DNA of 34,137 nt from Opitutia bacterium. Its GTDB lineage: Bacteria; Verrucomicrobiota; Verrucomicrobiia; Opitutales; Opitutaceae. The notes under the pieces are model-generated. The model made no database searches and was not told where the DNA came from. It worked only from the letters and a program-made list of their open reading frames with translations. Every line of letters starts with the position of its first letter. The first letter of the stretch is position 1. The stretch spans positions 34,004 through 68,140 of the forward strand of contig PLOH01000106.1 of NCBI GenBank assembly GCA_003142955.1. The letters run 5' to 3'. A program made the position numbers and the translations under genes. This document shows, piece after piece, positions 4,663 through 26,577 of the stretch.

Positions 4663-4672
4663 GCTTTGAAGG

Positions 4673-4751
4673 TGTAGGAGCCTGTTTACAGGCGATCATT
4701 TGTCATCGGCATGGCTTCTTGGGTCCAATCGCCTGCAAGCAGGCTCCTACA
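4673..4751. repeat. Paired REP-like unit (BIME-like) between arnA decarboxylase half and arnD
   Basis: Two inverted units face each other: 4673-4696 begins TGTAGGAGCCTG and 4728-4751 is the complement of the same unit. Each unit is itself a palindrome (GCCTGTTTACAGGC and GCCTGCAAGCAGGC), and each begins with GTAG when read outward. The 31-base centre is not conserved with the other copies. The unit resembles Pseudomonas-type REP sequences. The pair lies within the arn cluster and may shape mRNA stability between the two genes. Confidence 0.8.
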
Positions 4752-4766
4752 TGGCGAGAGAACGCC

Positions 4767-5804: not shown

Positions 5805-5911
5805 GGGTGGGTTGTTCCAGGATGGAGGATTAACCATGAAACCCAGGAAAAGACACGAAAAGAATGCAATGCCTGATGCTGCATCGAAACCTCCCGGGGT
5901 TCGATCCCCAG

Positions 5912-5930
5912 GGGTCAAACTTTGCACTTT
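5912..5930 (+). repeat. Left inverted repeat flanking the RAYT gene
   Basis: The 19 bases GGGTCAAACTTTGCACTTT are the near-perfect complement of 6929-6947 at the other end of the RAYT gene, differing at one position. They lie 39 bases before the RAYT start. The pair probably marks the ends, or the recognition sites, of the RAYT unit. Direct repeats of a duplicated target site were not evident by eye. Confidence 0.75.
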
Positions 5931-5969
5931 GTACTCGCGCGGGGGATGTGAAGCGTCTAGCGGTGGATC

Positions 5970-6944: not shown

Positions 6945-6994
6945 CCCTGTTCGCCAAAGTTTGACCCTGTTCGCTAAAGACCCTGTTCGCTAAA
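6929..6994 (+). repeat. Right inverted repeat and tandem 20-mers at the end of the RAYT gene
   Basis: 6929-6947 is the inverted partner of 5912-5930. From 6935 there are two perfect tandem copies of CAAAGTTTGACCCTGTTCGC (6935-6954 and 6955-6974), then a 16-base copy lacking TTTG and with T for C (6975-6990), then the start of another (TAAAG, 6991-6995). The RAYT stop codon lies in the first copy. Such stepwise decay suggests slippage or repeated end-processing at this terminus. Confidence 0.8.
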
Positions 6995-7058
6995 GCGCGA
7001 TCCTGCGTTCGATCGCGGAGTTTAGCCGCTCCGCCGAGTAAAGCACAGAAGTGCCGCG

Positions 7059-7967: not shown

Positions 7968-7974
7968 GGGGGCA

Positions 7975-8928
7975 TCACTCTTTCGTCTCCAGGATCTCCC
8001 GGACAAAATAGCGCTGGCGGGCGCGGACGACCTGGTAGGTGCGGCCGACGTATTCGCCGATGAGGCCGATGCCGACCATGGCCACGCTGATTAGAAAGAA
8101 CAAGACGGCAAACAGGGTGAACACGCCGAAGGTTTCGCGGTCCAGGTTGAACACAAAGCGACGCCACAGCAGGACTCCCACGAGCGCCATGCTGCCCGCC
8201 GCACAGCCCATCGCGAACAGGGTGAACGCCTGCAGCGGCGCCAGCGAGAAGCCGGTGATGAGGTCGAAATTGAGCCGGACAAGCTGGTAGAAGGAATAGT
8301 TGGATACGCCGGCATGCCGCTCCTCATGCTTGACGCCCACCTCCGCCGGATGGCTGGAGAAGCTGTATGCCAGCGCCGGGATGAAGGTGTTGATCGCGCC
8401 GCTGCGCACGATCGCCTCGATCACGGGCCGGCGGTAGGCGCGCAACATGCAGCCCTGGTCGGTCATCTCGATGTTCGTCGTCTTGCGGCGCACGAAATTG
8501 ATGAGTTTCGAGGCCCACCTGCGGAAGACCGAGTCTTGCCGGTTCAGCCGGTAGCCGCCGACGTAGTCGTGGCCCGACTCAATCTTCTCCAACAGCTTCG
8601 GAATCTCTTCCGGAGGATTCTGCAGATCGGCGTCCAGCGTCACAATCACTTCGCCCCGCACCCGCTCGAACGCCGCCATGACGGCCATGTGCTGGCCATA
8701 GTTCGCATTAAAATCGATGACCCGCGTGACCTCCGGCCGCGCCGTGTATTGAGTGCGGAGTAGCTCGAAGGAGCGGTCGCCGCTGCCGTCATTGGTGAAG
8801 ATGATCTCGTAACGCCGGCTGAGTGCGTCGAGCACGGGATAGAGGCGGCCGAAGAGCAGGGGCAAGTTCGCCTCCTCGTTGTAGACGGGAATGACGACGG
8901 AAAGGAAGATTGGAGAAGGAGAAGACAC
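7975..8928 (-). CDS. arnC: Undecaprenyl-phosphate 4-deoxy-4-formamido-L-arabinose transferase ArnC
   Basis: A GT2-family membrane glycosyltransferase of 317 residues that moves L-Ara4FN from UDP to undecaprenyl phosphate. Motifs are VVIPVYNEEANLP at about 11-23, NDGSGD near 46-51, NANYGQHMAV, the metal-binding LDADLQNPPEEIP and the acceptor-side QGCMLRAYRR. Two transmembrane helices follow at about 235-255 and 270-295, then GEYVGRTYQVVRARQRYFV, all as in ArnC. It lies between arnB (142-base gap) and the formyltransferase gene (short gap or overlap, depending on the start). The related enzyme polyisoprenyl-phosphate hexose synthase is the alternative, but the neighbours settle the call. Confidence 0.93.
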   Translation of the reverse strand: MSSPSPIFLSVVIPVYNEEANLPLLFGRLYPVLDALSRRYEIIFTNDGSGDRSFELLRTQYTARPEVTRVIDFNANYGQHMAVMAAFERVRGEVIVTLDADLQNPPEEIPKLLEKIESGHDYVGGYRLNRQDSVFRRWASKLINFVRRKTTNIEMTDQGCMLRAYRRPVIEAIVRSGAINTFIPALAYSFSSHPAEVGVKHEERHAGVSNYSFYQLVRLNFDLITGFSLAPLQAFTLFAMGCAAGSMALVGVLLWRRFVFNLDRETFGVFTLFAVLFFLISVAMVGIGLIGEYVGRTYQVVRARQRYFVREILETKE

Positions 8929-8975
8929 GGGATGATACCAAGCAAAACTAGCAGGATCGCGGATGGATTTGAATG

Positions 8976-9040
8976 TGGAAATCAGGAAAGTCGGAACGAC
9001 CCCTTCACGTTTGGATTATGCCCGGAGTTCCTGATTTCCA
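8976..9040. repeat. Inverted repeat in the arnB-arnC gap
   Basis: A perfect 13-base inverted repeat, TGGAAATCAGGAA at 8976-8988 and its complement at 9028-9040, with a 39-base loop. It occupies most of the 142-base gap between the arnB stop and the arnC start. It is not of the GTAG type and I see no second copy in the window. It could be an attenuating or stabilising structure in the arn mRNA. Confidence 0.6.
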
Positions 9041-9070
9041 TATAGGGATTTCGAAGAAAGGGCTTCGGCG

Positions 9071-10240
9071 TCAGCGCGTTGTCCGCTTCTGATGGGCTTC
9101 CAGAATGCCGACCAAGCCCGTAACCACTCGCGTGACATCCGCCGACGTCATCGCGGGAAAAAGCGGGAGCGTCAGGATATTGCGGCCGGCGTATTCGGCG
9201 TGCGGATAATCGCCGGCTTTCCAGCCCAGCCGCCGGTAGAGCGCAAACAGATGGATCGCGGGGTAATGCACGCCGGTGCCAATACCAGCGGCATGCAGCA
9301 ATGCCATGACCTCGGCCCGCTTGATGGACAGCCGCTCCCCGGGCAGCACGACCTGGAACATGTGCCAGTTGCTCTGGGTGAAGTCCGCGATCGGCAGCCG
9401 CAGCCCGAGCGCAGTCGCAGAAGAAGCGGCAAACGCCGCAAAGTAATCCCGGGCCAGTTCGCGGCGCCGGGCGGTGAATTCGGCGAGGTGCGGAAGCTGC
9501 CCAAGGCCGACCCGGGCGGCGACGTCGGTGAGGTTGAACTTGCCGCCGACGACCTCGACTTCCATGCCATCGTAGCCCGATCGGACCACCCCCTGCAGGC
9601 GATACTGCTCGGCCAGCTTCGCTTCGCGCTCGTCGTTCAGCACGAGGCAGCCGCCTTCCGTGGTGGTGATGTTCTTGTTGGCGTGAAAGCTGAAGGAGAC
9701 CAGATCGCCGACGGCTCCGATGCGCTGGCCGCGCCATTCGCTGCCGAACGACTGCGCTGCGTCCTCCACCACCCGGAGTTGATGTTTCTTTGCCAGGGCG
9801 TAGAGCCGATCGCGGTCGACCGGCAGACCGGACAGATCGACCGGGATGATCGCACGCGTCGCCGGTGTGATCGCCGCCTCGACGCGGTCCAAGTCGATAT
9901 TCCGGGTGACGGGGTCAATGTCGACGAAGACGGGGCGGGCGCCGACTTCGAGGACCACATTGCTCGTCGCGACCCACGTCAGCGGCGTAGTGATCACCTC
10001 GTGTCCCGGTCCGACACCAGCAATGCGCAGCGCAATCTCCAGCGTGGCCGTGCCCGAATTGAGCGCCCGCACCGGGCGGCCGCCGACGTACTCGGACAAT
10101 CGGGCCTCGAAGGCCTTGACGTGCGGCCCGGAGGTAATCCAACCCGAGCGCAAAACCTCGGCCACGCCGGCGATGGTCTCGTCGTCGATCGTGGGACGGG
10201 TGAACGGCAGAAAATCCTTTGGCGCGGCAGGAGCGGTCAT
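9071..10240 (-). CDS. arnB: UDP-4-amino-4-deoxy-L-arabinose aminotransferase ArnB
   Basis: A PLP enzyme of the DegT/DnrJ/EryC1/StrS family, 389 residues, that transfers an amino group from glutamate to UDP-4-keto-pentose. The internal-aldimine lysine is K189 in SFSFHANKNITTTEGG, almost the Salmonella ArnB position (K188). VVEDAAQSFGS at about 157-167 carries the cofactor aspartate. NSGTATLEIAL near 61-71 binds the phosphate, and GVHYPAIHLF is late in the protein. Another sugar aminotransferase of the same family is possible on sequence alone, but the run of arn genes makes ArnB very likely. It overlaps the end of arnT by four bases (ATGA), so the two are translationally coupled. Confidence 0.93.
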   Translation of the reverse strand: MTAPAAPKDFLPFTRPTIDDETIAGVAEVLRSGWITSGPHVKAFEARLSEYVGGRPVRALNSGTATLEIALRIAGVGPGHEVITTPLTWVATSNVVLEVGARPVFVDIDPVTRNIDLDRVEAAITPATRAIIPVDLSGLPVDRDRLYALAKKHQLRVVEDAAQSFGSEWRGQRIGAVGDLVSFSFHANKNITTTEGGCLVLNDEREAKLAEQYRLQGVVRSGYDGMEVEVVGGKFNLTDVAARVGLGQLPHLAEFTARRRELARDYFAAFAASSATALGLRLPIADFTQSNWHMFQVVLPGERLSIKRAEVMALLHAAGIGTGVHYPAIHLFALYRRLGWKAGDYPHAEYAGRNILTLPLFPAMTSADVTRVVTGLVGILEAHQKRTTR

Positions 10241-11952
10241 GGCTCGTTGCTGAAGAGATAATGGTCCTCGCTCTGCGCGAGCAAATGATAAGTGAACGTT
10301 GGGTCGGCGAAGAGATGCCGGGTATCGGGCTTGCGGGCGACCGCAAAGACCCGCCCAGGTTGCCGCCAGAGCTGGCGAAACGCGGCCTCATCGAGGAAAC
10401 GCCCGCTGGCGCGGGCCGCAGCGTCCTCCTCCGGCTCGAGTTCGCCTTTAAAGCCGACGACGTCCACGAGGCGGCGGGAGTAAAACGGGAAATCGTGAAA
10501 AAATTCATGGTAATGCAGCACGCGATCCGCCGGTCCGGCATGCGCCTGCACGAAGAGCGCAAGATCCTTCGTGCCCGGCCGCTGAATCCTGGCCGCCGCA
10601 AACGTGAGGACGCTGCCGAACAGGATGATCGTCGCCGCCATCGTCGCGAGCGCCGCGAACGCGCGGCCGGTCCGGGCGAGCGCAGGCGCGAGGACGCCGC
10701 CGCACAACAGGACCGCGGCCAGGATGAAGGCGGTCGGCCGGAATGCCTGTGCCTGGTCCGCCGTCAGACCGCGGATTACCGCCGGCCGGAGCACGACGGT
10801 GACCAGGGCAACGGCGAGCAATCCCGCTGCGAAACCGAAAACACGGAGTCCACCGCGCAGCCGTGGCCAGCCTTCGGGCAGGCTGGTGGCCAGCCACCGG
10901 CCGATCAGGACGGCGAGGGCCGGAAACACCGGCAGGATGTAAGGCGGAAGCTTGGAGTGCGAAGCCGAGAAGAACAGGAAGATGAAACCCGCCCAGATGA
11001 CAAAAAACCATGTATCAGCATTCTTACTACGGTCGGTCCAGCCGCCGCGGAGGGCGCTCCGCCCGGCCGCCCAAAGGAACCCGCTCCAGGGAAACAGGCC
11101 GAGCAGAACGATCGGAATGAAATACCACCAGGGTCCCGCCCGGCTGGCCGCCGGCGTCAGGAAGCGCTCCACATGCTCGTAGACCACATAACGGTGGAAC
11201 CAAGTGGGATTGTGCGCGGCGACAAGGAGATGCCAGGGTGCCGCGATCGCGAGAAACAGCAGCGCGCCGGTCGGCAGATAGAAGGGCCGCAGGCGCTTCC
11301 ACTGGCTGCAGAGGAGCAGCCAAAGGAACATCACGGCCCCGGTCACAAGAAAGCCCATCAAGCCTTTCGCCAGCGTGGCCAGAGCGGCGCTCGCATACAG
11401 TCCGTAAAACCACCAGCGCCGCGGCGCGGCCCAACTGCTCGTGCCGGGCGTGGGCGGCGGTGCGCGCACGCCCAGGATGAAACAGAAGAGAACCGCACTC
11501 ATCAGCACCGAGACGGCCATGTCCAGGATCAGAAAGCGCGCGAGGACGTAATAGAGCAGGGACGTCCCCAGGATGAGCGCGGCCGCCAGGGCGGCGGAGC
11601 GACCGTAGATCAGCCGGGCCGCCGCGTAGGTGAACAGAGCGCCGCCGAGGGCAAAAAGCAGGGGGGCAGCGCGCACCGCCCATTCGCTTGGGCCGAAGAG
11701 CTGGAGGCCTGCCGCCACCGTCCAGTAGACCAGCGGCGGCTTCTCAAAGTAGTTCACGCCATCGAGACGGGGCGTTACCCAGTCGCCACTCGCCACCATT
11801 TCGCGGGCGATCTCAGCGTTCCTGCCTTCATCGGGATTTGCCAGCGGATAGCGGCCAAGCCGAAATCCATAGACGGTTCCTAGCGCCAACACGAGAAGCA
11901 GGACGTCGCGCAGCCAGGAAGAGGTGGGGACAGACTCGCTCATTTGAGACAC
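10237..11952 (-). CDS. arnT: ArnT-like undecaprenyl phosphate-alpha-L-Ara4N transferase (GT83/PMT fold)
   Basis: A 571-residue polytopic inner-membrane glycosyltransferase that moves L-Ara4N from undecaprenyl phosphate to lipid A phosphates on the periplasmic side, lowering negative charge and binding of polymyxin-like peptides. The first periplasmic loop has PLANPDEGRNAEIAREM (36-52) with the family acidic pair (D41, E42) and NYFEKPPLVYW (67-77). About a dozen hydrophobic helices follow, then a soluble periplasmic C-terminal domain from about residue 450. It is the first gene of the cluster, preceded by the repeat element at 11976-12126, so the promoter probably lies in or near that repeat. 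ArnT-like enzymes can use other sugars; the neighbours point to Ara4N. Confidence 0.9.
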   Translation of the reverse strand: MSQMSESVPTSSWLRDVLLLVLALGTVYGFRLGRYPLANPDEGRNAEIAREMVASGDWVTPRLDGVNYFEKPPLVYWTVAAGLQLFGPSEWAVRAAPLLFALGGALFTYAAARLIYGRSAALAAALILGTSLLYYVLARFLILDMAVSVLMSAVLFCFILGVRAPPPTPGTSSWAAPRRWWFYGLYASAALATLAKGLMGFLVTGAVMFLWLLLCSQWKRLRPFYLPTGALLFLAIAAPWHLLVAAHNPTWFHRYVVYEHVERFLTPAASRAGPWWYFIPIVLLGLFPWSGFLWAAGRSALRGGWTDRSKNADTWFFVIWAGFIFLFFSASHSKLPPYILPVFPALAVLIGRWLATSLPEGWPRLRGGLRVFGFAAGLLAVALVTVVLRPAVIRGLTADQAQAFRPTAFILAAVLLCGGVLAPALARTGRAFAALATMAATIILFGSVLTFAAARIQRPGTKDLALFVQAHAGPADRVLHYHEFFHDFPFYSRRLVDVVGFKGELEPEEDAAARASGRFLDEAAFRQLWRQPGRVFAVARKPDTRHLFADPTFTYHLLAQSEDHYLFSNEP

Positions 11953-13219: not shown

Positions 13220-13531
13220 AATCGATTCTCGTGACCCGGAACTTGCCTCCTGGAAAACGCAGTTGACACCACGGATTTCACGGATGGCACGGATTACCTA
13301 TCTGTCTGAATCCTTGGGACATTACCCTCGGGTGAATGTGCCTTGGATCATATTCTCCCGGCAACTCTACGTATCTGTGCAATCTGTGTAATCCGTGGTT
13401 GAATTGGCTGCTGAGATCGAGGTTGAAAACGCGACTCCCGTCGCATGCGTTTCTCGAAAGCGCGACGAGGGCGGCGAGTCTCGAGAAGAAAGCAGGCATC
13501 ACCGGAGCATGGTCAGTGTGAGATTCAAAGA
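13220..13531. other. Repeat-bearing spacer upstream of the GH5 gene and downstream of the DUF2752 gene
   Basis: About 310 bases without a credible gene. It holds the large inverted repeat at 13266-13400 and a GC-rich hairpin at 13431-13480 (GCGACTC...GCGAGTC with inner CGTCGC/GCGACG pairing). The latter lies 50-100 bases past the DUF2752 stop and may end that transcript. The promoter of the GH5 gene must also be here, but I cannot name its boxes with confidence. Confidence 0.6.
13266..13400. repeat. CCACGGATT-type inverted repeat
   Basis: The left arm at about 13266-13297 reads ACACCACGGATTTCACGGAT and continues GGCACGGATTAC. The right arm at 13371-13400 is its complement with a few changes (ATCTGTGTAATCCGTGGTT). 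Each arm is built of a short GGATT/CACGGAT motif repeated three times at about ten-base steps. Arms of this kind are familiar between genes of several bacterial groups, but I cannot tie them to a named element. The 75-base centre shows nothing I recognise. Confidence 0.65.
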
Positions 13532-13957
13532 TCAAAACCTCGGGAGGTTTCGCAGGATCCCGAACAAGATGATACCCCCAAGTCCCAACCAGATCACCGC
13601 CGGGCGTGGCGCGGTCCACTGGATACCGCGCCCGCGGATGAGTCCCAGTCCGAGGTGGCAGACGAGCAAAGCATAGAACGGCACCAGCAGCACGGCCAGG
13701 GGATTCAGATTCCAGGCCGCGGCGGAATGCCCATGCAGCAATTGATGCGTGGCGCGCAATCCGCCGCAGCCGGGACATTGCAGGCCCGTGGTCGCACGCA
13801 ACAGGCAGGGGTAGATCTCGTGGCGCGCCGGATCGATCAGATACAGCGCACTGGCGCCCGCCAGCGCGACACCGGCCAGGACCAAACTCCACCCGGCCGG
13901 GCGCGGAGCGGCACCCAGTCGTGGTGGCGTCGCGGTCGCGGCGGTGTTCAAAGGCAA
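13532..13957 (-). CDS. DUF2752 family small membrane protein
   Basis: A membrane protein of about 141 residues with the DUF2752 hallmark PCLLRATTGLQCPGCGGLRA, in which two close cysteines (CPGCG) are the key feature. ATHQLLHGHSAAAWNLNPLA follows, then hydrophobic helices to the C-terminus. The frame is open far upstream in the GYF gene, but that part is clearly a shadow. No ATG is placed suitably. The best start is a TTG at 13957, directly behind the TGA (13965-13963) of the GYF gene, with another TTG at 13951. The family's function is not known to me. Its pairing with GYF/DUF4190-like membrane proteins is common. Confidence 0.8.
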   Translation of the reverse strand: MPLNTAATATPPRLGAAPRPAGWSLVLAGVALAGASALYLIDPARHEIYPCLLRATTGLQCPGCGGLRATHQLLHGHSAAAWNLNPLAVLLVPFYALLVCHLGLGLIRGRGIQWTAPRPAVIWLGLGGIILFGILRNLPRF

Positions 13958-13962
13958 TGTGA

Positions 13963-14643
13963 TCAGTGGAACTGCGATTTGACTTCCGGTTTGCTCAGAA
14001 CCACCAGCGCCCAGATGCCAAAGGGAATGCCCAGCAGGCAGCAGGGCGAGAAGCAGGGGATCATCGCGATGATGGCCGCGGCCATGGCCAGACCATGGCC
14101 GGTCAGCTTCTGCATCCGCAGTGCGCCCAGAAGGATGAAGACGCTGACGGCGATGCCGATGGCGTTGCTGACGACGGCAATGGGGCCGTGGGTGAACAAC
14201 CGGATCATGTGGACGACATCCGGATCCAATCCAGGCAGGTCCGGCGTGCCGCCCATGCCGGAAAGAATCTGGACCAACCCGAGCAGACTGGCTGCGATCC
14301 CCAGTCCGCCCGTTACCATGAGGGCAATGGCCGGTCCGGCGACCAACTGCTGAGCCTTGGTCTGGGCGAGGGGGTCCTGGCCACTTGGAACGGCGCCTCC
14401 AATCGACGCCACCGACGGAACAGCGGTGGCCGGCGGCGGGAGCGGGGTGCCACCCACCACTGGTGGTGCCACTCCCAACACGTCGGCAAACTCGGCGAAT
14501 TGGCCAAGCGGCTTCCAGCTCACATCGTCGATCAGCTTGGCCATGGTCTCGCGATTGGCGCGGCCCTCCGCGATCCATTTTCTTATCTGATCATTCGCAA
14601 CCGGACCATATTCTTTGCCGTCCGCTCCGAGGATTTTGAACAT
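13963..14643 (-). CDS. GYF_2-domain membrane protein
   Basis: A 226-residue protein. The first 60 residues form a GYF_2 domain (KILGADGKEYGPVANDQIRKW, then WKPLGQFAEF), thought to bind peptides. A proline- and alanine-rich linker follows to about residue 95. Then come hydrophobic helices at about 100-130, 150-175 and 180-215, the last containing the cysteine-bearing stretch PCFSPCCLLGIPFGIWAL typical of DUF4190-like proteins. It is translationally close to the DUF2752 gene that follows. Function is unknown; an inner-membrane location is likely. Confidence 0.85.
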   Translation of the reverse strand: MFKILGADGKEYGPVANDQIRKWIAEGRANRETMAKLIDDVSWKPLGQFAEFADVLGVAPPVVGGTPLPPPATAVPSVASIGGAVPSGQDPLAQTKAQQLVAGPAIALMVTGGLGIAASLLGLVQILSGMGGTPDLPGLDPDVVHMIRLFTHGPIAVVSNAIGIAVSVFILLGALRMQKLTGHGLAMAAAIIAMIPCFSPCCLLGIPFGIWALVVLSKPEVKSQFH

Positions 14644-15853: not shown

Positions 15854-16843
15854 TCAGCCAGCGCAGACGACCATGGACTTTCCTCCGCGGGTTGCGAGCA
15901 CTTGACGTTCGATCCAAGGATACGTGCGGCTGAGGCCTTCGCGCAGGGAAAGCCGCGACTTCCAGCCAATGGATTCCATCCGGGCCGCGCGGAAATTGCG
16001 GGCCTTGACGCCGACCGGGCCAGACACGTGCTTAAGCCGAACCTTCTTGCCGGCGATCTCGGCGATCAGATAGGCGAGTTCATCGACGGAGACATACTCC
16101 TGGCGGCCGATATTCACGCCGTTCTCCAGGTTGGAGTGTATCAAGGCAATGATGCCCTCGATCATGTCGTCAATATAGGTATAGGCACGCATCGCGGTGC
16201 CATCGCCCCAGACCTCGATGCTGCCGCCATCCGCGGCTTCGGCGATCTTGCGACAGAGCGCGGCCGGAGCCTTTTCCCGACCCCCGCGCCAAGTCCCTTC
16301 GGGCCCATAGCAGTTTTGAAACCGGGCCAGGCGCACCGCCATGCCATAGCGCCGGCCAAATGCCATGGCCATGCGCTCGGCATACAGTTTCTCCCAGCCA
16401 TATTCGTTGTCGGGCAGGGCCGGATAAGCCTGCTCCTCGCTCAACTCAGCCTCGTCCTTGTGCATGTCCCGGTAGACACAGGCCGAGGAGGAGAAGAAAT
16501 ACCGTTTGACTCCGGCCTGGGCGCTGCACCGTGTCATGTGGGCGTTGATCAGGCCGCTATTGAACATGATTTCGCACTCGGCTGAGTGGATAAAGCCCAT
16601 GCCGCCCATGTCCGCCGCGAGCTGGTAGACTTCATCGAAGGTGCCGCCCCCGGGCGCGGCGAGGGCCGCCCGACAGGCCTGCTCGTGGCGCAGGTCAAGC
16701 ACCTGGAAGTCGTCGGCCGCAGTCGGTGAGAATTCCGGAGGTTTCTGATCGGCCCCGCGCACCCAATAGCCTTCGCGCTTGAGCCTCCTGACTAAGTGGC
16801 TGGCGATAAAACCACCAGCTCCGCAGACCAATATCTTTTTCAT
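15854..16843 (-). CDS. GDP-mannose 3,5-epimerase-like NAD-dependent sugar epimerase
   Basis: An extended SDR enzyme of 329 residues. CGAGGFIASHLVRRLKREGY (7-26) binds NAD. The stretch YQLAADMGGMGFIHS is the mark of GDP-mannose 3,5-epimerases (plant GME has NLAADMGGMGFIQS). SSSACVY holds the active-site serine and cysteine, YGWEKLYAE the Y-x3-K pair, and GTWRGGREKAPAALCRK, which lines the sugar site, follows plant GME almost word for word. Plant GME converts GDP-D-mannose to GDP-L-galactose or GDP-L-gulose. In this setting it more likely supplies an unusual GDP-hexose for the cell-surface glycan. It follows the giant glycosyltransferase gene by about 50 bases on the same strand. Confidence 0.88.
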   Translation of the reverse strand: MKKILVCGAGGFIASHLVRRLKREGYWVRGADQKPPEFSPTAADDFQVLDLRHEQACRAALAAPGGGTFDEVYQLAADMGGMGFIHSAECEIMFNSGLINAHMTRCSAQAGVKRYFFSSSACVYRDMHKDEAELSEEQAYPALPDNEYGWEKLYAERMAMAFGRRYGMAVRLARFQNCYGPEGTWRGGREKAPAALCRKIAEAADGGSIEVWGDGTAMRAYTYIDDMIEGIIALIHSNLENGVNIGRQEYVSVDELAYLIAEIAGKKVRLKHVSGPVGVKARNFRAARMESIGWKSRLSLREGLSRTYPWIERQVLATRGGKSMVVCAG

Positions 16844-16893: not shown

Positions 16894-19800
16894 TTAGTTT
16901 TCCGCCCGGATCAAATCGCAATCGGTTCGGCTCGGCAGGCCGGTCCCCGCCCGGAGATAGATCTCATCGATGACCTCGGGACGATAGTGGCGGTCGACGA
17001 AGCGTTGACCGCTCTCCCCCATGGTCTGGCGCGTGGCCGGGTCGTCCAACATCTTGATCGCCGCCCGAAATTCCGCTTCGTCCCGGTATGCCAGCCCGCC
17101 TCCTGACCGGCGGCACTGACCCGCCAGAACCGCGGAGTTTCCGTTGACCAGGACGGCTTTGCGGACCGCCCAGGCTTCGAGCAGAACGAGCGAAAGGCTC
17201 TCGAATAGCGAGGGCATGACCAGGAACTCGCAGGCCGCCAGCGCGTCCCACTTCTCCTGTTCCGATACGAACCCGGGGGCGATGATGTCGGCGTGGTCAG
17301 GAATCTCCATCGCCGCTTTTCCAAGCAGCACCAACTTTCGTGGGGTGGATTCCGATTGGCGGAGGCGAATAAAATATTCCCACAGCTGATCGCAGCCTTT
17401 GGATTGATCAATCCGGCCGAGATAGAGGAGAAAAGGCTCCTCCACCTGGAAACGGTGGCGAAACCGATCGCCATTGAGATCCACTGGGGCCGTCACGGGA
17501 ATTCCGGCCACCGGACCGTCGATGGGCAGCGTGGGGAAGCGCTGTTGGGTAAAGGTCTTCTCCTCAATGGTGTTGAAGATAAAGGCCCGCGGCTGGGCAA
17601 ACCAACGGTCCCACATCGGGAAATAGATTGGCCATTCGTCGTGAACCGTCGGCACCAGCACCGCCCGGTCGGCGACGAGGGGCAGACCGAAATAGCTGGT
17701 GCAATAAAGATAGGTGAAGAAAAAGAACCGCTCATAGTTCAGCTGGTTGGCGGCCAGGTAATCGAACAAGGCCGGGCACCACGGGCCTTGTTGCTTCATC
17801 CAAGCCTCTCCATCAGCGATGGAGGTCGAGGCAATGCTCGGGCGCAAGCGGACTGACAACTGGTTGAACGATTGCGAATCGCGCGGTTGCTCGACGGGGA
17901 ACCGGCGAATCACCACATCATCCACCGCCTCCGTTCCCGGAGGGAAGTCATTCGCCCAGGTCACGTAGTCCAGGGCGCAAGTGGTGAGAATCTCGACCTG
18001 CCAGTGGGCGGCCATCCGAGTCGCGATCTGGAGGCAGAGCGACTCCGAGCCGCCGTTGACCTCGCGCCCGGCGCGCTGCACAACAAACGCCACCCGGGGC
18101 TTGCTCCGCGCCTCCCGAGAAGACGGCCCAGGCAGGCTGGAGTCGGTTGCCAGAGATGCGCCGACTTGAGCGCTGCCCGCTCTCCGCGCCTCCAGACTCC
18201 GGAGGATCATGGCTTCGACCTGATCGACGCTGACAGACTGGATGCAACGGCAGAGGGGAGGGGGGTTGGCGGCGCGGTCCTGGTCCAGGCTGGAGCAAGG
18301 ATCCGGACAAAATTCTCCGCTGCAGCTCCAGCTGATGGAACTGACCGGGGCGAATTCCCGCTGGGCGGGGGGCCGCATAAAGTGGACGACCGGAATGCCG
18401 ACCGCAGCCCCGATGTGGATCTGGGCACTATCACTGGCCACGAGGCAGCCCACCCGTGACAGGTAGGCTGCCAGCTCGACGAGATCGAGGCGCCCGCACA
18501 GGTCATTTACCGCCACTTCGGGCTCCCAGCCGGCGATCAACTTCCGGTCGGCGGCGGAGCCAACCACCGCCACGACGTAACCACGCCGGCGAAGCCGGCG
18601 GGCCAGTTCGCGAAATTTAACCGGCGCCCAGCGGTCGATCGCCAGCCGTGCGCCGGGGGCCAAGACGATCGTATTCCGGCGCGGCCGGCCGACCGTTTCC
18701 GCCCGGGCCGAGTCCTCCGCGGAAAAATAGACCACCGGACCACTCCAGGCATCAGCCCCGATGCTGCGGAGCAGCGCTTGGTGCTTATGGCAAACATGCT
18801 GTTCCGGCGGCCAGGCCACGGCGTGGGTGATCAGGTGGTCATGATCGGAATCATGCTGGTGGGAGAGGAGGTACCGGTGGGGAAGGACGCTGGCCAGCTG
18901 CAAGCTGGCGTCATAATTGTTCGAATACAGATGGACCACGAGGTCGAAGGGGCAGTCGAGCAGTTCGCGCAGGTTCCGGGAATTTCGGGCGGCCCGATCC
19001 CGGCTGAAACACGGATCGGAAACCTCGCCTCGGTCCCAGGGAGGGTCGTACGGAACCACCCGGTCCACATACGGATTGCGCCGCAGGATGTCCGCGGACC
19101 CCGGGGACACCACCGCGGTAATCCGAGCCTCGGGAAAACGCTGTTTTAGGCTGTGGAAGGTCGGGCTGGCCAGCAGTAGGTCGCCCATCGGGTCGAGCTT
19201 GACGACGGCGATCGCGCGCACGTCAGTGAGGGCTGGCGCGGCTGCCGCCGGGCCGGACGGGATGCCGATGCGGCGGCGCTGGACTCGCCGGACGAGCCGT
19301 AGCAGTTGTGCTTTCACCAGAACCGGCAAAAAGGCTTCCCGCCTCCGGCGTTGGGTAAAGAGCACCATCGCGCGCCGCCAGGGATTATGCACCAGTTGGT
19401 AGGCGATCCGGGCGAGTTCCTCCGGATCCGCCTTGGATCGAAAAAGCACTCCTGCTCCGTCAAGGGTCTCCGGGACGGCCCCGGCGGCGAAGGCGAAGAC
19501 CGGAACATCGAACCACATGGCCTCGATCAGCGGAACGCAAAATCCCTCGTGTTCACTCATGCTCCAAAACAAACGGGCGGAGCGATAATAGGAGGCGAGA
19601 CGGGCGTCATCGATCATCCCGGTGAACTCAACCGCTCCGGACAGGCCAAGCTTCTCAACCAGTCTCCGGAGGCAGGCATGGTAGGGTTCGTCCGCCATCA
19701 GCGGCGTGCCGACCAGATGCAGCACCGCGGTTGGATCCAGTTTTCGAAAATGAAAGAAGGTGAAGATAAGGTCCTCGTGTCGCTTGTTCGGAGCCAGGCG

Positions 19801-21612
19801 CCCGACAAAAAGGAGGTGGGTTCTCCCATCCTGCAATTCGCGCATCAAGCCGGGGTCCGGAACCTGATTCAACCTGGCCGGGTCGACCGCGATCGGCAGC
19901 ACATCGGGATCGCGAAAGCCGGCTTCGGCCAGCTCGGCCGCATTGAACCCGGAATCTCCAACCGAATCCGGGAAATGGCTGGCGAGTCCCGGCAGTTGGT
20001 CCCGGCCTTCCGCGCAAATCCGGACGTGGTGGGGCAGATAGTGCTCAAAGAAACGGTGGGGCGTGATGTTGTGGTAGATCAGCGCCTTTGGCCCGGGGTG
20101 CGCGCAGGCGTCGTCCGTGATTACGCTGCCGATGGCGTGGTGATAAAGCAGGGTGGCGGTGGCAGAGATCTTGCCGGGAGCCCAGGGCAGAACCTCGGTC
20201 CGCACCCTCGGGTCAATGCCGTTGGCGTAGACTTCAGAATCATAACCGGCTTGTCGGAGCACCCGTTTGATCCACAGTATTTCGTTGGAAATGGCGTCGC
20301 CATAGGACATGCAGGGCACCACCTGATGGACGGAGCCCAGCTCGGTGTCGGACGGAGATTCCATCGGGTCGACCAACTCGCGAATCGCGGCCTCATAGCG
20401 GGAGATAGCCGTCTCCCAGTCGCCGTATTCCTGGGCGTATACCCGACCGGCGGCGCCCAGTGCGGCCATCTCTTCCGCTGCCGCGCGATCGACGCGGACA
20501 AACGCATCCATCCAGGCCCCTTCGCTCCCGGCCAGCCATCCTCCGCCACTGTCCAGCACCGCCGCGGCGGTAGCCAAACAGTCCGCATGAGCTACGATCG
20601 GGCGGGCGTAATGCCAGGCTTCCATCAACACCCTGGAGTAGCTCTCGTTGACGCTGGGATTGAACAAGGCAACGCAGCCCGCCAACAGCCGGTGTTTGTC
20701 GGCTTCGGAGACGGCTCCGAGGTCCTGGATGCCGGTGCGGTCGGCGGGGAGCACCATCTCTCCGGCTCCGGCCAGCCCCAGTTTGAGGCCAGAATTCGGA
20801 TTCCCGGCGCGGAAGGTGGAATAAGCCCGGGCGATCAGGTCGGTGTTCTTACCGGCGTCCTGCCTGGCCAGGCATAACACGAAGCGCCCCAATACTCCAA
20901 GATCGACTGTCTGGTCGCCGGCGACCACAGCGGGAATCTCCACGCCGGCTCCGGCCACGCTGCTCCGGGAACATCCGCCGAAGCCGAAGATATGCGTGGC
21001 AAGTCGGGCCTCCCCCTCTGAGAGGAAAAGGACGCGTCGCGCCTGCGCAAAGGCCGCCGCCACCAACGGAAGGTAAGCATAGGACTCGTGATGCAGGCAT
21101 GGAATCAGGATCGATCGCTTGGCGACAAGCGGCAGTCCGCGCAGAGTGGTAAAATAGAGATAGGGCAGAAACAGAAATGCGGTGTAGTCCTCCCCCCGGC
21201 CTCGGAGATGGTCGAGCAAGGCGGGACAACTTACGAGCCGGTCGACAAAGAGGCTTTCTTGCTCGGCACTCAGCGGAGGCGGACCGGGCGACACGCCGTT
21301 CTTCACCAGCGCAGCAAAGGTTGCGCAGATCTTGTGGAACTCCTCCCGCTCACAAGGCAGCACCGGGAAGCGCCGGACGGCAAACCCCTCCGGTTCCTCG
21401 GTCAGTCCGGCCGGCAGATGGTTTTCGGACCAATGATGCTGAAACGATCGGCAGCACGTGGTGATTACTTCGATGCGGTGGCCGCGCTTGGCGAGACGGG
21501 TCGCGAGTTCCCAGGCGTGACGTTCGGCCCCGCCGGGAAGCTCACGACCGAACCACGGAATGACAATGCCAATGGGCTTTTCGACGAGAGGCATGCGCAA
21601 AGCGTCAGGCAT
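16894..21612 (-). CDS. 1572-residue four-module glycosyltransferase (GT4-GT4-GT9-GT4)
   Basis: One continuous frame with four GT-B glycosyltransferase modules. Module 1 (about 12-415): IPWFGRELPGGAERHAWELA and the GT4 pair E323/E331 in NESYSRVLMEAW. Module 2 (about 428-770): LLFVGRLAPNKRHEDLI and E689/E697 in HEGFCVPLIEAM. Module 3 (about 798-1140) is GT9, heptosyltransferase-like: VVKLDPMGDLLLASP (803-817) and ASDSAQIHIGAAVGIPVVH (1059-1077), with a cysteine-rich insert CSGEFCPDPC...CRC (1097-1123). Module 4 (about 1172-1555): a VNGGSESLCLQIA start and E1471/E1479 in FESLSLVLLEAW. Modules 1 and 4 resemble each other through their length, so they look like a duplication. It lacks a signal peptide and transmembrane helices, so it should act at the inner face of the membrane and build several linkages of one repeat unit. 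Its ATG overlaps the end of the preceding methyltransferase gene by eight bases; the ATG at 21594 is an alternative. Confidence 0.93.
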   Translation of the reverse strand: MPDALRMPLVEKPIGIVIPWFGRELPGGAERHAWELATRLAKRGHRIEVITTCCRSFQHHWSENHLPAGLTEEPEGFAVRRFPVLPCEREEFHKICATFAALVKNGVSPGPPPLSAEQESLFVDRLVSCPALLDHLRGRGEDYTAFLFLPYLYFTTLRGLPLVAKRSILIPCLHHESYAYLPLVAAAFAQARRVLFLSEGEARLATHIFGFGGCSRSSVAGAGVEIPAVVAGDQTVDLGVLGRFVLCLARQDAGKNTDLIARAYSTFRAGNPNSGLKLGLAGAGEMVLPADRTGIQDLGAVSEADKHRLLAGCVALFNPSVNESYSRVLMEAWHYARPIVAHADCLATAAAVLDSGGGWLAGSEGAWMDAFVRVDRAAAEEMAALGAAGRVYAQEYGDWETAISRYEAAIRELVDPMESPSDTELGSVHQVVPCMSYGDAISNEILWIKRVLRQAGYDSEVYANGIDPRVRTEVLPWAPGKISATATLLYHHAIGSVITDDACAHPGPKALIYHNITPHRFFEHYLPHHVRICAEGRDQLPGLASHFPDSVGDSGFNAAELAEAGFRDPDVLPIAVDPARLNQVPDPGLMRELQDGRTHLLFVGRLAPNKRHEDLIFTFFHFRKLDPTAVLHLVGTPLMADEPYHACLRRLVEKLGLSGAVEFTGMIDDARLASYYRSARLFWSMSEHEGFCVPLIEAMWFDVPVFAFAAGAVPETLDGAGVLFRSKADPEELARIAYQLVHNPWRRAMVLFTQRRRREAFLPVLVKAQLLRLVRRVQRRRIGIPSGPAAAAPALTDVRAIAVVKLDPMGDLLLASPTFHSLKQRFPEARITAVVSPGSADILRRNPYVDRVVPYDPPWDRGEVSDPCFSRDRAARNSRNLRELLDCPFDLVVHLYSNNYDASLQLASVLPHRYLLSHQHDSDHDHLITHAVAWPPEQHVCHKHQALLRSIGADAWSGPVVYFSAEDSARAETVGRPRRNTIVLAPGARLAIDRWAPVKFRELARRLRRRGYVVAVVGSAADRKLIAGWEPEVAVNDLCGRLDLVELAAYLSRVGCLVASDSAQIHIGAAVGIPVVHFMRPPAQREFAPVSSISWSCSGEFCPDPCSSLDQDRAANPPPLCRCIQSVSVDQVEAMILRSLEARRAGSAQVGASLATDSSLPGPSSREARSKPRVAFVVQRAGREVNGGSESLCLQIATRMAAHWQVEILTTCALDYVTWANDFPPGTEAVDDVVIRRFPVEQPRDSQSFNQLSVRLRPSIASTSIADGEAWMKQQGPWCPALFDYLAANQLNYERFFFFTYLYCTSYFGLPLVADRAVLVPTVHDEWPIYFPMWDRWFAQPRAFIFNTIEEKTFTQQRFPTLPIDGPVAGIPVTAPVDLNGDRFRHRFQVEEPFLLYLGRIDQSKGCDQLWEYFIRLRQSESTPRKLVLLGKAAMEIPDHADIIAPGFVSEQEKWDALAACEFLVMPSLFESLSLVLLEAWAVRKAVLVNGNSAVLAGQCRRSGGGLAYRDEAEFRAAIKMLDDPATRQTMGESGQRFVDRHYRPEVIDEIYLRAGTGLPSRTDCDLIRAEN

Positions 21613-23299
21613 TGTGCGCGACTACGGCATAATCCTGCGGGCCGTAGAAAAAGCCATTGAACCGATCGGCGAGCGCAGAGGGATCGGCCACCCGATGCTC
21701 CGAGCTATATGGATGCAGCAGCAACGTCTTGGCGTCTTTGAAGCCGGCATGTTCGACCGAAAAGGACAACAGCAGGGGAGGAACGGGGGAACGGTGGGTC
21801 GGATCCAGGTGAAAACTCTGGCTCGCCACGAGCAGATTGCCGCAGTTGGGCGTCTCCATCATGAGCAGGCCGCCGGGTTCCAGCACGCGGCGGGCCTCGC
21901 CCAGGATCGCGAGCAGGACGAGAAACGGCAGATGCTCCACCAGGTGCAGCGCCGTAACCGCGGCGAGCGACCGGTCCGGCTGCCGACGGAGGAAGTCCAG
22001 GGCATCCGCCTGCTCCACCGGCAAGCCGCGCTGGCGGCAGAGAGCGATCATCTGGGCGCCATGGTCCACGCCCATCGCCCCGGTCGCGCCGGCATCGAGC
22101 AACAACTGGAGCCATTCGCCGCGACCGCAACCCAGGTCGATCAGGCGGGCGCCCGGTCGCTGGCCGCGGAGTACGCCGAGCATTTCGAGATAGGGCAGGT
22201 AGATCTTCTGGCGCGAAGCGATTTCCTCTTGCGAACCGCGATAGCGGTCCTCGAACGCCAGGTAAAATCGCTCGAACGCGGGTTTGGCCGCGGCGTCGGC
22301 CTCGTCTCCAACGGAAGACCACGCAGAGGTGCGGTCCGCGAGCGCTCGCTGCAAAGCGGGGATGACCGCCTCGACCGCGAGAATGCGGGAGGCGAACGAC
22401 CCCAACCCCGGGCTGCTGGGCGCGGCGGCAACCCGCTCGGACTCCATCGCCTGGAGTCGTTGGTCAAGCAGGTGCAGCGCCGAGGCGAATTCCGCTGCTG
22501 GCAAGGCGGAACCGGCCTCCGCCACCTGGGCGGCCAACAACGCCACTTGGGCGCGAAAGGAGCCCAGGGTCTCTTCGTAGTCCCGCTGCTGGCGCATCGC
22601 CCGCGACTGCAGATCGGCGAGGGCGCTCTTGGCGCTGCCGATCTGGGCGTGGTTTTCCGTTTCGGCCTGCGCCAGTCGGGCCACCAGCGCCGCAAGTTCT
22701 CCCGCGAGAGCCTGCTGGTGGCGCAGCGCCTGCGCCTGCAGATCCGCGAGGGCGTCGTTCGTGGTGGCGTGATGGGTGACGTTCTCCTGCTCCTGCTTCT
22801 CCTGCTGGGCGCGGAGTGCCGCCAGCTCGGCCTGGATTACGTCCGAGGTTCGTGCCTGGAGCTGCTCAATTCTCGTCAGGTGCTCAGCTGCTCTGGCTTG
22901 TACCCGCCCGAGCGCAGCGAGGTCGCCGCGGTTTTCATTGGCCAGTTGATCGAACCGCAGTACGCGACGGAGCAGGTCGTCATAGCGTTCGGCTGACGCC
23001 TGGTCGTGTTCGCTAACCGTGGCCTCGGAGGCGCGCAGAGCGTTGCGGAGACTTACGGTGAGCAACTCAAGACGCGCGGCTTGACGGCGCGTTGCCTCGA
23101 GGGTTTCCCGGTCACGTGCTGCCTCCTTCCCCAGGGCGGACAGGGCGGACAGCAAGGTCTTCTCATATCTGGCCTTTCGGGGAAAGACATCGCCGAGCAG
23201 ACGCTCGAACCATGAGCGTTTGCGCCTGAGTTCATTGGCTCTGCGCTCGAGGGCCGCGAACGAGCTGTCTTCCGGCGGAGTCTGGGAATGGGTGGGCAT
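21605..23299 (-). CDS. Coiled-coil SAM methyltransferase, WbdD-like O-chain terminator candidate
   Basis: A 564-residue protein. The first 340 residues are almost all heptad-rich helix (dense A/L/E/Q/R), with a related stretch twice: ALADLQAQALRHQQ (183-196) and ALADLQSRAMRQQR (226-239). A class I methyltransferase follows: FERFYLAFEDRYRGSQEEI (342-360), LIDLGCGRGEW (386-396), then VTALHLVEHLP and VLEPGGLLMMETPN. The FEDRYRGS-to-IYLPYL segment ahead of the SAM site is, to my knowledge, typical of methyltransferases in ABC-exported O-antigen clusters. In E. coli O8/O9a, WbdD caps chain ends and its coiled coil sets chain length. Here the coiled coil is N-terminal and no kinase domain is seen, so function by analogy is only an inference. 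It follows the 180-residue protein gene by 21 bases. Confidence 0.85.
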   Translation of the reverse strand: MPTHSQTPPEDSSFAALERRANELRRKRSWFERLLGDVFPRKARYEKTLLSALSALGKEAARDRETLEATRRQAARLELLTVSLRNALRASEATVSEHDQASAERYDDLLRRVLRFDQLANENRGDLAALGRVQARAAEHLTRIEQLQARTSDVIQAELAALRAQQEKQEQENVTHHATTNDALADLQAQALRHQQALAGELAALVARLAQAETENHAQIGSAKSALADLQSRAMRQQRDYEETLGSFRAQVALLAAQVAEAGSALPAAEFASALHLLDQRLQAMESERVAAAPSSPGLGSFASRILAVEAVIPALQRALADRTSAWSSVGDEADAAAKPAFERFYLAFEDRYRGSQEEIASRQKIYLPYLEMLGVLRGQRPGARLIDLGCGRGEWLQLLLDAGATGAMGVDHGAQMIALCRQRGLPVEQADALDFLRRQPDRSLAAVTALHLVEHLPFLVLLAILGEARRVLEPGGLLMMETPNCGNLLVASQSFHLDPTHRSPVPPLLLSFSVEHAGFKDAKTLLLHPYSSEHRVADPSALADRFNGFFYGPQDYAVVAHNA

Positions 23300-23320: not shown

Positions 23321-23863
23321 CTAGAGCAGGTACCCGGTCAACGTTCCCAGTCCAATCGCCAATTTCCTCTGGTCGGCGCTGAGGCCCGCTTGATAGGGGC
23401 TGATGGCATTCGGAAACCGGAGGACCAGGCGGAGGGTGCCTCCCGGCGCTTGCGCGGGCGGGACTAGCACAGCGGTTTCGCCGGGCTCTGCGACGGAAAC
23501 CAATCCAATCAAACGATGTTCGTCGGCAATCTTGATGATCTGTTCAGGGACGCCAGGCGGACAAAAAGGGACCAGCGACAAACGCAGCAGCATCTCTCGG
23601 CGGGGCGGTGGCGCCTCAATTTCGATGGTCGCTTGTAGGCCCTCGGACCACGTGAAATCAACCTCGGGAAAACTCCAGCCGGAGACCAGCAGGTGGCTCC
23701 ATGGATCGCCTTTGCGGAAGTGCACCGGGTGTCCCCAGCGCCAACCCGGAACCCCGGCTGGCGCGGCAGGCTCGGGTGGCTCTGCCGGGGCAAGAGCCAC
23801 CTCGATGACCTCGCGGCGGATCTGTGCCATCAATTCATCTGCAGCAGCGATTGGGGGAGGCAT
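23321..23863 (-). CDS. Stand-alone copy of the Wzt C-terminal beta domain
   Basis: A 180-residue soluble protein. An N-terminal helix, ADELMAQIRREV (8-19), resembles the leader of many polysaccharide-cluster enzymes. After a proline/alanine linker, the main domain (about 55-178) aligns by eye with residues 438-556 of the Wzt-like ATPase in the same operon: SGWSFPEVDFTW with GGWCVPERGHCW, PFCPPGVPEQ with PFLPPGSAAQ, and RFPNAISPYQAGLSADQRKLA with RLPGAASPVSVGISNDARVLA. No catalytic residues are evident. A glycan-binding or structural beta-sandwich is the best guess. I know of no named function. Confidence 0.8.
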   Translation of the reverse strand: MPPPIAAADELMAQIRREVIEVALAPAEPPEPAAPAGVPGWRWGHPVHFRKGDPWSHLLVSGWSFPEVDFTWSEGLQATIEIEAPPPRREMLLRLSLVPFCPPGVPEQIIKIADEHRLIGLVSVAEPGETAVLVPPAQAPGGTLRLVLRFPNAISPYQAGLSADQRKLAIGLGTLTGYLL

Positions 23864-23920: not shown

Positions 23921-24877
23921 TCAAGCGGAAACCCGCAGGGTGAGCTTTTTCGAGAAACAGCCCGGCAGTTCATCGAACCAGAACCTTCCTTCCTGAACCA
24001 GCGACAGGTGCAACGTGTATCGGCCCGGCAGCAGCGGGGCGTCCAGGAGCATCGTCTGGGTGATGGCACCTGCCGGGGGGATTGGGCTGTCCAGGCGCGT
24101 GCGCCGGCCATCGTGGGTGATCGCCGTGAGGTCGTCGTCGCTGTTCACATGGTAGCTTAGCACGACAGGGTAGGGCGGACTGGAGGCAATCCACCGATCG
24201 GAGAGGTTCGTGATCCGGACGGGCAATTCTACCATGGCGCCGGGCTTCGCCTGCAGGGTATCGTCGCGATGGTTGTCACCCTGCGGTTCGATCGCGGCTT
24301 TTGCCTGCTCCGACGGCAACGGCGCCATCCAGGAACTATTCCGGGTCTGCCGCCATTCTGCCGCGTTCGCCTGCACCGGGAGGAACAGAATCCCGGTGAA
24401 TTCGGGCAGCCACGGATTATGCACGTCGAAGCCGCAGACGGCCTCGCGGGAGAAAAAACAAGGCAGCGGGTCCGGAGGGCCGCCCCAACATTGGAGATTG
24501 ATGGTGAAACGTCCCGGAGCGAAATTGACAGGAAAGACCAGGCGAACTTCGGTGGAAACTCCCGGGGACAGTTTCAGGTCAAGACCGAGGTGTTTGGTGC
24601 TGGTGGCGAACACGACCTGCCCGAGGCGGTCGGCGAGCCCGATCCACACGGAGCAGGCGGTGCATTCGACCTCGCTGAAGAGCAAGACCGTCAGGACGAC
24701 GGATTCACCGGAGGCGAAGCGCCCCTCCCGGCCGTCTCGCGCCGCCAAGCGAGTGCCGATAAGCTGCACGCCGGTGGCCAAACTGGGCGAAGAACCGAGC
24801 GGCGCCGCCGGTTCGGTCTCGGCCGAATTCGCAGCCGGGATGTTGCCCTTGGGGGGAGAGGATTCTGGCGGTATCAT
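23921..24877 (-). CDS. Two-domain beta-sandwich protein, Wzt C-terminal-like plus associated domain
   Basis: A 318-residue protein with no signal peptide. Domain 1 (about 35-155) looks like the Wzt C-terminal O-antigen-binding fold: GVQLIGTRLAARDGREG, FASGESVVLTVLLF, LADRLGQVVFATSTKHLGLD, then a strand pair ending FAPGRFTINLQCWG. Domain 2 (about 210-318) is a separate beta domain: KPGAMVELPVRITNLSDRW, PVVLSYHVNSDD, LLPGRYTLHLSLVQEGRFWF. Domains like it are often attached to glycosyltransferases of surface-glycan clusters. Its ATG follows the Wzt stop by two bases, so it should be co-translated with Wzt. A role in recognising the finished chain for export is plausible but inferred. Confidence 0.82.
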   Translation of the reverse strand: MIPPESSPPKGNIPAANSAETEPAAPLGSSPSLATGVQLIGTRLAARDGREGRFASGESVVLTVLLFSEVECTACSVWIGLADRLGQVVFATSTKHLGLDLKLSPGVSTEVRLVFPVNFAPGRFTINLQCWGGPPDPLPCFFSREAVCGFDVHNPWLPEFTGILFLPVQANAAEWRQTRNSSWMAPLPSEQAKAAIEPQGDNHRDDTLQAKPGAMVELPVRITNLSDRWIASSPPYPVVLSYHVNSDDDLTAITHDGRRTRLDSPIPPAGAITQTMLLDAPLLPGRYTLHLSLVQEGRFWFDELPGCFSKKLTLRVSA

Positions 24878-24879
24878 GG

Positions 24880-26577
24880 TCAGCGCGATCCGCCCAACGG
24901 ATGAAACGCGATCCGCCGGAACGCCAGCGCGAGGACTCGCGCATCATTGCTAATGCCGACTGACACGGGGCTGGCGGCTCCCGGCAGACGCCACCACAGA
25001 ATCGATTCGCCCGTCCCAGACCGGAGCGCCACCGGGATCTCGGCCTCGGCCAACATAGGTCGTGCAATTGCCCATTCGGCCAGCACGGATTTGCCGCAAC
25101 CGACCTGCACCTGCTGCGCGGCACTTCCGGGCGGAAGGAATGGGAACACGTCAGCGATCAACCGGGCGCCGCTCCCGGCAGGGAGGCGAACCGCCAGGCG
25201 CGATTCCCGGCCTTGGGTCCAACAATGGCCTCGTTCCGGAACGCACCAGCCGCCAACCTGAAAACGCTGGGCATTGCCGGTATCAGAGAAGTCAATCGGT
25301 TGGTTCCACTGGCAGTCGCGCGTGAGCAGCCTGACTTGATCGGATACCTCGACCGTGGTGCCCAGTGCGGCAACGCCGGTAAAGGCGAATGGCCAGTGCG
25401 GCACGACGGTGAACGCCAGCAAGTTGTCACACCAGTCATAGTTCCCCTCGCGGTGATCCGTACCTGCGTGGATCGCCAGGGTGATGGAGTAGTTGCCGGG
25501 GCCCAGATTAGCCGGAAGGGAAAAGGCCACTTCCATGGATTCGCCCGCCGCGTAAGTCCGCGTGGCGAGGCCCAGGTTGAGCGTGTTGGTCCCAAAGACA
25601 TCATTGCCGAGACGGTCGCGGATCAGAAAACCCACGGTCGGGGCGGCGACGTTCTGCCTGAACTCGACGGCGCACGCGATCCGAACGGTGGCCCCACACA
25701 GCACGGCGCGAACCGACCGGCCGGCGGCGTCGAGGAGATCGAAGCGCTCGAGCGTGGCCCGGCCGTTGCCTGACCTCGTTTGACGTTGGCCACCGGTCGT
25801 TTCTGTAACGCGAATCTCGTGCTCCCGCTCCTTGGCGGCGATCAGGGCGTTGTAGTAATCCAGTACGTCGGAAGGGACTCCTTCACGAACGACCATGCCG
25901 CGATCAAGCAGAATGGCGTAATCGCAAAAAGTCTTCACCGCATTGGGATCATGGGAGACAAAAAACAGGCTACGGCCTTCCTCTCGAAACTGTCGCAACA
26001 GGCGGGCGCATTTGTGGGCGAAGTAGGCGTCCCCGACGGACAGTACCTCATCGATGATCATCAGGTCGGGTCGCACCTGGGTCAGCAAGGCGAAGGCCAG
26101 CCGCACCCGCATGCCGCTGGAATACGTGCGCATCGGCTGGCGGAGAAAGGCGCCGATCTCAGCGAATTCTTCGATCTCACCGAGATGACCGTCAATGAGA
26201 CTCCGGGGCAAACCGAGAATCGAGGCGCTTAGATAGAGATTCTCCAGGCCGGTGAAATCATCATTGAAGCCCGCCCCCAGATCCAGCAACGCCAACACCC
26301 GTCCGGAAACCATTACCGTGCCCTCGCTCGGGGTGAGCGTGCCCGCGATCATTTGCAGCAACGTCGATTTGCCCGCGCCATTGAGGCCGATGATGCCGAT
26401 GCTGACGCCCTTGGCGATCGACAGGTTAACCCCCCTCACGGCCCAGAAATCGCCGTATTGTTTCCCGACGTTGGTCGCCTGAACAGCGAGGCCACAGCCG
26501 CCGGCATTCGGCTGGGCGGATTCTCTTGTCGTGGTCGGGTGGGCGCGAGGCGTGGCCCTGAACAGATCGAGCAGCAT
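24880..26577 (-). CDS. Wzt-like O-antigen ABC exporter ATPase with two C-terminal domains
   Basis: A 565-residue protein in three parts. The ABC ATPase (about 30-255) has Walker A GLNGAGKST (64-72), signature YSSGMRVRLAFA (152-163), Walker B LMIIDEVLSVGD (172-183) and switch FVSHD (206-210), all of the Wzt/TagH subgroup. The Wzt C-terminal domain (about 270-395), a beta-sandwich that binds the end of the O-chain in E. coli O9a, has VGFLIRDRLGNDVFGTNT and GPGNYSITLAIH. A further domain (about 435-560) is shared with the 180-residue protein of this operon. Typical Wzt is about 400-430 residues, so the last domain is extra. It is the first gene of the operon. No Wzm permease gene lies beside it or elsewhere in the window. 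Confidence 0.92.
   Translation of the reverse strand: MLLDLFRATPRAHPTTTRESAQPNAGGCGLAVQATNVGKQYGDFWAVRGVNLSIAKGVSIGIIGLNGAGKSTLLQMIAGTLTPSEGTVMVSGRVLALLDLGAGFNDDFTGLENLYLSASILGLPRSLIDGHLGEIEEFAEIGAFLRQPMRTYSSGMRVRLAFALLTQVRPDLMIIDEVLSVGDAYFAHKCARLLRQFREEGRSLFFVSHDPNAVKTFCDYAILLDRGMVVREGVPSDVLDYYNALIAAKEREHEIRVTETTGGQRQTRSGNGRATLERFDLLDAAGRSVRAVLCGATVRIACAVEFRQNVAAPTVGFLIRDRLGNDVFGTNTLNLGLATRTYAAGESMEVAFSLPANLGPGNYSITLAIHAGTDHREGNYDWCDNLLAFTVVPHWPFAFTGVAALGTTVEVSDQVRLLTRDCQWNQPIDFSDTGNAQRFQVGGWCVPERGHCWTQGRESRLAVRLPAGSGARLIADVFPFLPPGSAAQQVQVGCGKSVLAEWAIARPMLAEAEIPVALRSGTGESILWWRLPGAASPVSVGISNDARVLALAFRRIAFHPLGGSR

Follow-up and report, generated by a model that had tools for sequence, protein, structure and literature searches.

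We found that the window, the whole 34,137-nucleotide stretch of DNA analyzed here, encodes a genuine 1572-residue glycosyltransferase in which four modules are joined in the order GT4-GT4-GT9-GT4. The window comes from a 4.29-Mb MAG and lies at the end of a contig of 68 kb. The protein is longer than any described example that we found, but its parts are known, as is the kind of gene cluster in which it lies. We consider it probable that this protein is a fused multi-site polymerase for an ABC-transporter-dependent polysaccharide, with the methyltransferase encoded upstream as its chain terminator, and that it originated from a GT4-GT4 core to which a GT9 module and a fourth module were added. 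The glycosyltransferase gene and its parts are as follows:

16894..21612, minus strand: four-module glycosyltransferase GT4-GT4-GT9-GT4, 1572 aa (open reading frame, Pfam, uniform third-position GC)
20368..21585, minus strand: module 1, GT4, residues ~10–415, E-x7-E at 323 (Pfam, AlphaFold model, orthologues 42–55% identical)
19258..20337, minus strand: module 2, GT4 of a different subfamily, residues ~426–785, E-x7-E at 689 (Pfam, AlphaFold model)
18163..19224, minus strand: module 3, GT9/heptosyltransferase-like, residues ~797–1150 (PF01075, PDB 3tov and 1psw, alignment)
18235..18321, minus strand: Cys-containing C-terminal stretch of the GT9 module (alignment)
18085..18162, minus strand: linker between modules 3 and 4, without a homologue (low pLDDT)
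16948..18084, minus strand: module 4, GT4, residues ~1177–1555, E-x7-E at 1471 (Pfam, AlphaFold model, orthologues)

A reading of the sequence alone (the sequence-only reading) had described four modules in one frame and left the strand unstated. The open reading frame runs unbroken from ATG to stop and spans exactly 16894–21612 on the minus strand. Pfam finds three Glycos_transf_1 stretches (PF00534, 151.5 bits against a cut-off of 26.4) and one Glyco_transf_9 domain (PF01075, residues 882–1094, 63.9 bits against a cut-off of 22), which gives the module order. Third-position GC lies between 0.69 and 0.79 along the entire open reading frame, and the frame is constant. Furthermore, within the window's family, a GT4-GT4-GT9 protein is encoded in three other genomes, two of which (G302 and G480) are single-contig assemblies. 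Therefore, a frameshift or assembly error, which had been named as a way in which the four-module claim could fall, is ruled out for modules 1–3; the join between modules 3 and 4 is known from one MAG only.

All three GT4 modules retain the E-x7-E pair, as claimed earlier, at residues 323 (ESYSRVLME), 689 (EGFCVPLIE), and 1471 (ESLSLVLLE). The donor-site Arg/Lys is also kept in each of them (LARQDAGK, VGRLAPNK, and LGRIDQSK), so donor-site residues are not lost from any GT4 module. The AlphaFold models of modules 1 and 2 are well-folded GT-B structures with a mean pLDDT of 86 and match GT4 structures in the PDB. Module 4 is also a well-folded GT-B structure (pLDDT about 88), and its model matches 6kih with a Z score of 32.2 and an rmsd of 3.0 over 349 residues. 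For module 3, a model made without an alignment is good in the N-terminal half only and poor in the C-terminal half, and the PDB matches of a model spanning modules 3 and 4 are mostly due to module 4. Modules 1 and 4 do have the unusual stretches in common (LYFTT... and LYCTS...) that had suggested an internal duplication. However, the duplication is rejected: the two modules are about 30% identical to one another and 42–57% identical to their own orthologues, and in a tree their groups are two separate cross-phylum clades with support of 97/94.

Module 3 matches PDB 3tov and 1psw by sequence and keeps both motifs that the sequence-only reading had listed, DPMGD and SDSAQ. In our alignment, D811 of DPMGD takes the position of the catalytic Asp13, and D1061-S-A-Q-I-H1066 (SDSAQIH) corresponds to the GT9 signature D(T/S)(G/A)xxH (PMC3559599). 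The cysteine-rich insert noted earlier as unusual is a normal GT9 C-terminal feature; the alignment shows the stretch in relatives' GT9 proteins, and we rejected a novel insert for this reason. One important position does differ. Asp993 stands where heptosyltransferase I has Lys192, two residues before a conserved Trp; this residue is Lys in both 3tov and 1psw, and Lys or Arg in all nine aligned GT9 relatives. The K192A substitution in heptosyltransferase I lowers activity 926-fold (PMC5713226). Given Asp993, the GT9 module of the window's genome may be weak or otherwise altered. The module scores far under the equivalog cut-offs for HepI (62 against 185.3 bits), HepII (54.7 against 134.6 bits), and HepIII (69.6 against 170.2 bits), and we assign it by sequence to the GT9 family, an assignment that carries no claim of ADP-heptose transfer.

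These residues bear on a three-site enzyme, a reading compatible with the polymerase that we favor and one that we regard as possible if somewhat unlikely. In it, the window GT9 module would have lost or changed its activity and would act as a structural spacer, with the GT4 modules alone doing the work. Asp993, set against nine of nine Lys/Arg and the cost of K192A, is what speaks for such an enzyme. However, D811 and D1061-S-A-x-x-H1066 are intact, and the window deviates in only 3 of 42 well-conserved GT9 columns. At the Lys192 position, Arg, Asn, or Thr is found in some characterized heptosyltransferases (PMC3559599). Module 3 is full length, and it shares 44% identity with the GT9 module of G480, in which the Lys192 position is Lys. 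We think it doubtful that all four modules are active, such that one polypeptide processively builds a four-linkage, heptose-containing repeat. If this were true, the protein would be a polymerase with more modules than the described two- and three-module ones, and GT9 heptosyl transfer would serve chain polymerization instead of LPS core synthesis. The protein offers a test case in which a GT9 module has moved from LPS-core-type chemistry to an apparent chain polymerase.

The genes around the glycosyltransferase gene are as follows:

21605..23299, minus strand: helix-rich protein with a C-terminal methyltransferase, candidate chain terminator (Pfam, homologues upstream in most loci)
23321..23863, minus strand: 180-aa protein without a family, with weak similarity to Wzt-like proteins in their C-terminal part
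23921..24877, minus strand: Wzt_C-type carbohydrate-binding domain protein without ATPase (Pfam)
24880..26577, minus strand: Wzt, ABC ATPase with C-terminal Wzt_C domain (Pfam, Wzt_C 121.9 bits)
15854..16843, minus strand: GDP-mannose 3,5-epimerase-like enzyme, directly downstream of the glycosyltransferase gene (PDB 2c59, E 2.4e-80)

The 8-base overlap between the methyltransferase gene and the glycosyltransferase gene suggests that they share a transcript. The methyltransferase protein has a long region low in Pro and Gly with a weak EzrA-like match, and a crude heptad test of its helical region was not significant. The window Wzt is 53% identical over 548 aa to the Wzt of G421. Genes for 3,5-epimerase-like enzymes that are 67–69% identical to that of the window occur in two related clusters (L020 and L023), and the window enzyme could possibly supply GDP-L-galactose.

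Next, one scan of genome contigs gave 17 loci, which come from Verrucomicrobiota, Thermodesulfobacteriota, Myxococcota, Pseudomonadota, and one Anaerolineae MAG. Where complete, these loci (related clusters among L008–L023) encode a ~780-aa GT4-GT4 protein that is orthologous to modules 1 and 2, at ~45–52% identity; this core occurs in the first four of the groups just named. Most loci that reach far enough have a homologue of the same methyltransferase gene directly upstream, and many have Wzt nearby. Unlike the window protein, the ~780-aa proteins have no GT9 module, and their module 4 counterpart is a separate gene or absent. Such a separate GT4 gene lies downstream in L009, L011, L013, L020, and L022, mostly overlapping or adjacent. 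In plasmids, tblastn found no match at E 1e-40.

Among described systems, the WbdA polymerases carry two or three glycosyltransferase modules, with one module for each linkage, and are accompanied by a methyltransferase terminator with a coiled coil (PMC11231755). The WbdA/WbdD systems of E. coli O9a and K. pneumoniae O3/O5 resemble the window in combining a multi-module glycosyltransferase, a methyltransferase terminator, and a Wzt with a C-terminal carbohydrate-binding domain (PMC11231755). However, the WbdA modules are all mannosyltransferases, whereas the window protein has four modules from two CAZy families. In addition, the methyltransferase of the window is C-terminal in its protein, no kinase domain was found, and no wzm lies beside the window wzt (24880–26577); contigs C30 and C39 of the same genome carry wzm/wzt pairs. 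The K. pneumoniae O12 protein WbbB is likewise one polypeptide with several glycosyltransferase modules of different families, three in its case, and it both polymerizes and terminates (PMC11231755). WbbB is composed of GT99, GT102, and GT103 including the terminator, while the window protein is composed of GT4 and GT9 with its terminator candidate in a separate protein. Module 3 shares its family, the catalytic Asp, and the D(S/T)(A/G)xxH signature with GT9 heptosyltransferases (WaaF, 1psw; 3tov), and differs from them in lying inside a GT4 chain as well as in the Asp993 and cut-off results above.

From the module architecture, conservation, and gene order that we observed, and from their likeness to the WbdA/WbdD model, we infer polymerization, capping, and Wzt recognition, together with the donors and the set of active modules. 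The 1572-aa protein would extend a lipid-linked glycan in the cytoplasm, with one repeat sugar added per active module. The upstream methyltransferase protein would then cap the finished chain, and Wzt would recognize the cap for export. Candidate donors for a GT4 module are GDP-sugars, including GDP-L-galactose from the neighboring 3,5-epimerase, and the candidate donor for the GT9 module is ADP-heptose. By the same analogy, ordered assembly of a repeat unit by a single polypeptide, as had been put forward earlier, is plausible. The proposal is weakened by the absence of an adjacent wzm, the non-significant heptad test of the methyltransferase helices, Asp993, and the one-MAG join. If active, a four-module protein could serve one-pot glycan synthesis.

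The same gene might also encode a fused builder of a non-repeating oligosaccharide (adaptor- or core-like), with each module acting once and in order, heptose as a linker sugar, and either polymerization by another enzyme or none afterward. This is unlikely in our judgment, even though most GT9 enzymes whose activity is known serve LPS core synthesis, a set of four different modules fits a fixed sequence, and the wider GT4-GT4 family lacks the GT9 module. A Wzt with a carbohydrate-binding domain together with an upstream terminator-like methyltransferase is the organization of polymerizing systems (PMC11231755), and the operon showed no other candidate for a polymerase.

The origin of the putative polymerase was followed in a survey of 252 genomes of the window's family. 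Proteins of the GT4-GT4-GT9 kind occur in four of them, namely the window's genome, G302, G421, and G480, the last three with open frames of 1312, 1158, and 1142 codons, respectively. The sequence-only reading did not recognize a GT9 module inside a GT4 chain from described systems, and we also found no described GT4/GT9 fusion in the open-access literature. The arrangement is nevertheless common to four genera of this one family. Modules 1–2 of the four proteins fall on the same side of a branch supported 93/96, and their GT9 modules have 36–59% mutual identity, compared with about 20–26% to the other GT9 sequences compared. The simplest reading is that the GT9 module was gained once in the lineage of the window's family. 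G302, G421, and G480 have the first three modules in the same order as the window and no module 4; the four-module order was found in the window only.

Module 4 of the window groups with a stand-alone gene of a Polaromonas MAG (57% identity, support 99/95), in a group distinct from that of module 1. Therefore, module 4 appears to have been joined on from another gene and not to be an internal duplicate. Overall, these comparisons strongly suggest two steps: a GT9 module was added to the widespread GT4-GT4 core in a single lineage within the window's family, and a separate GT4 gene, often found downstream, was later joined on as module 4. This would be stepwise growth of a glycan-building enzyme by fusion within one family, from two to three to four modules, in which the intermediate forms still exist. 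Such joining of modules is common here: G756 has a 1183-codon frame in which modules 1 and 2 are joined to another module-2-like unit, and further cases in G570, G429, and G620 are given below. The fusion gene of G302 is followed by GmhB-, HldD-, and HldE-like genes, of which only HldD scores above its curated cut-off, and these genes point to ADP-heptose for the family. On other contigs, the window's own genome has HldD, which scores above the cut-off, and an HldE-like gene.

We consider it very improbable that module 4 is really a separate gene whose stop codon was removed by a sequence error in the MAG: its homologues are separate genes wherever found (save a different fusion in G620), the join is seen once, and a GTG codon lies close to the usual start of these homologues, but a linker of ~25–30 residues connects the modules in frame with an unaltered coding signal across it, and in L020 and L023 the next downstream gene is part of a cluster of this kind as well.

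Several other fused frames were observed. In the window's family, G570 (L088) and G429 (L089) have ~1141-codon frames led by a module-2-like GT4. Both look like three fused glycosyltransferases, with the second and third parts judged by eye; the G570 frame is beside Wzt and methyltransferase homologues, and the G429 frame is beside an ABC ATPase. The G620 fusion (L100, a Chthoniobacterales MAG) is a 944-aa frame with a C-terminal module-4-like GT4 behind an unrelated N-terminal domain. A GT9 in L010, from a Methylococcaceae MAG, matches module 3 over 42 residues only and is not close to it, so it was not counted as evidence for the GT4-GT4-GT9 fusion. There, 4410–6251 encodes a GT9 fused to the C-terminal half only of a module-4-like GT4, which looks degenerate, with Gly in place of the second Glu of E-x7-E.

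Elsewhere in the window, 3757–11952 (minus strand) contains genes like those for lipid A aminoarabinose addition (ArnD-like, ArnC-like GT2, ArnB-like, and ArnT-like). ArnA is present as two separate genes, with an IS200-like transposase (5970–6944, plus strand) between its halves. Two overlapping open reading frames, 13278–13892 and 13532–14578 (both minus strand), share DNA that each reads in a different frame. The longer one (13532–14578) is supported by DUF2752, yet the shorter one extends the reading past its end; the pair possibly reflects a frameshift or a shadow frame.
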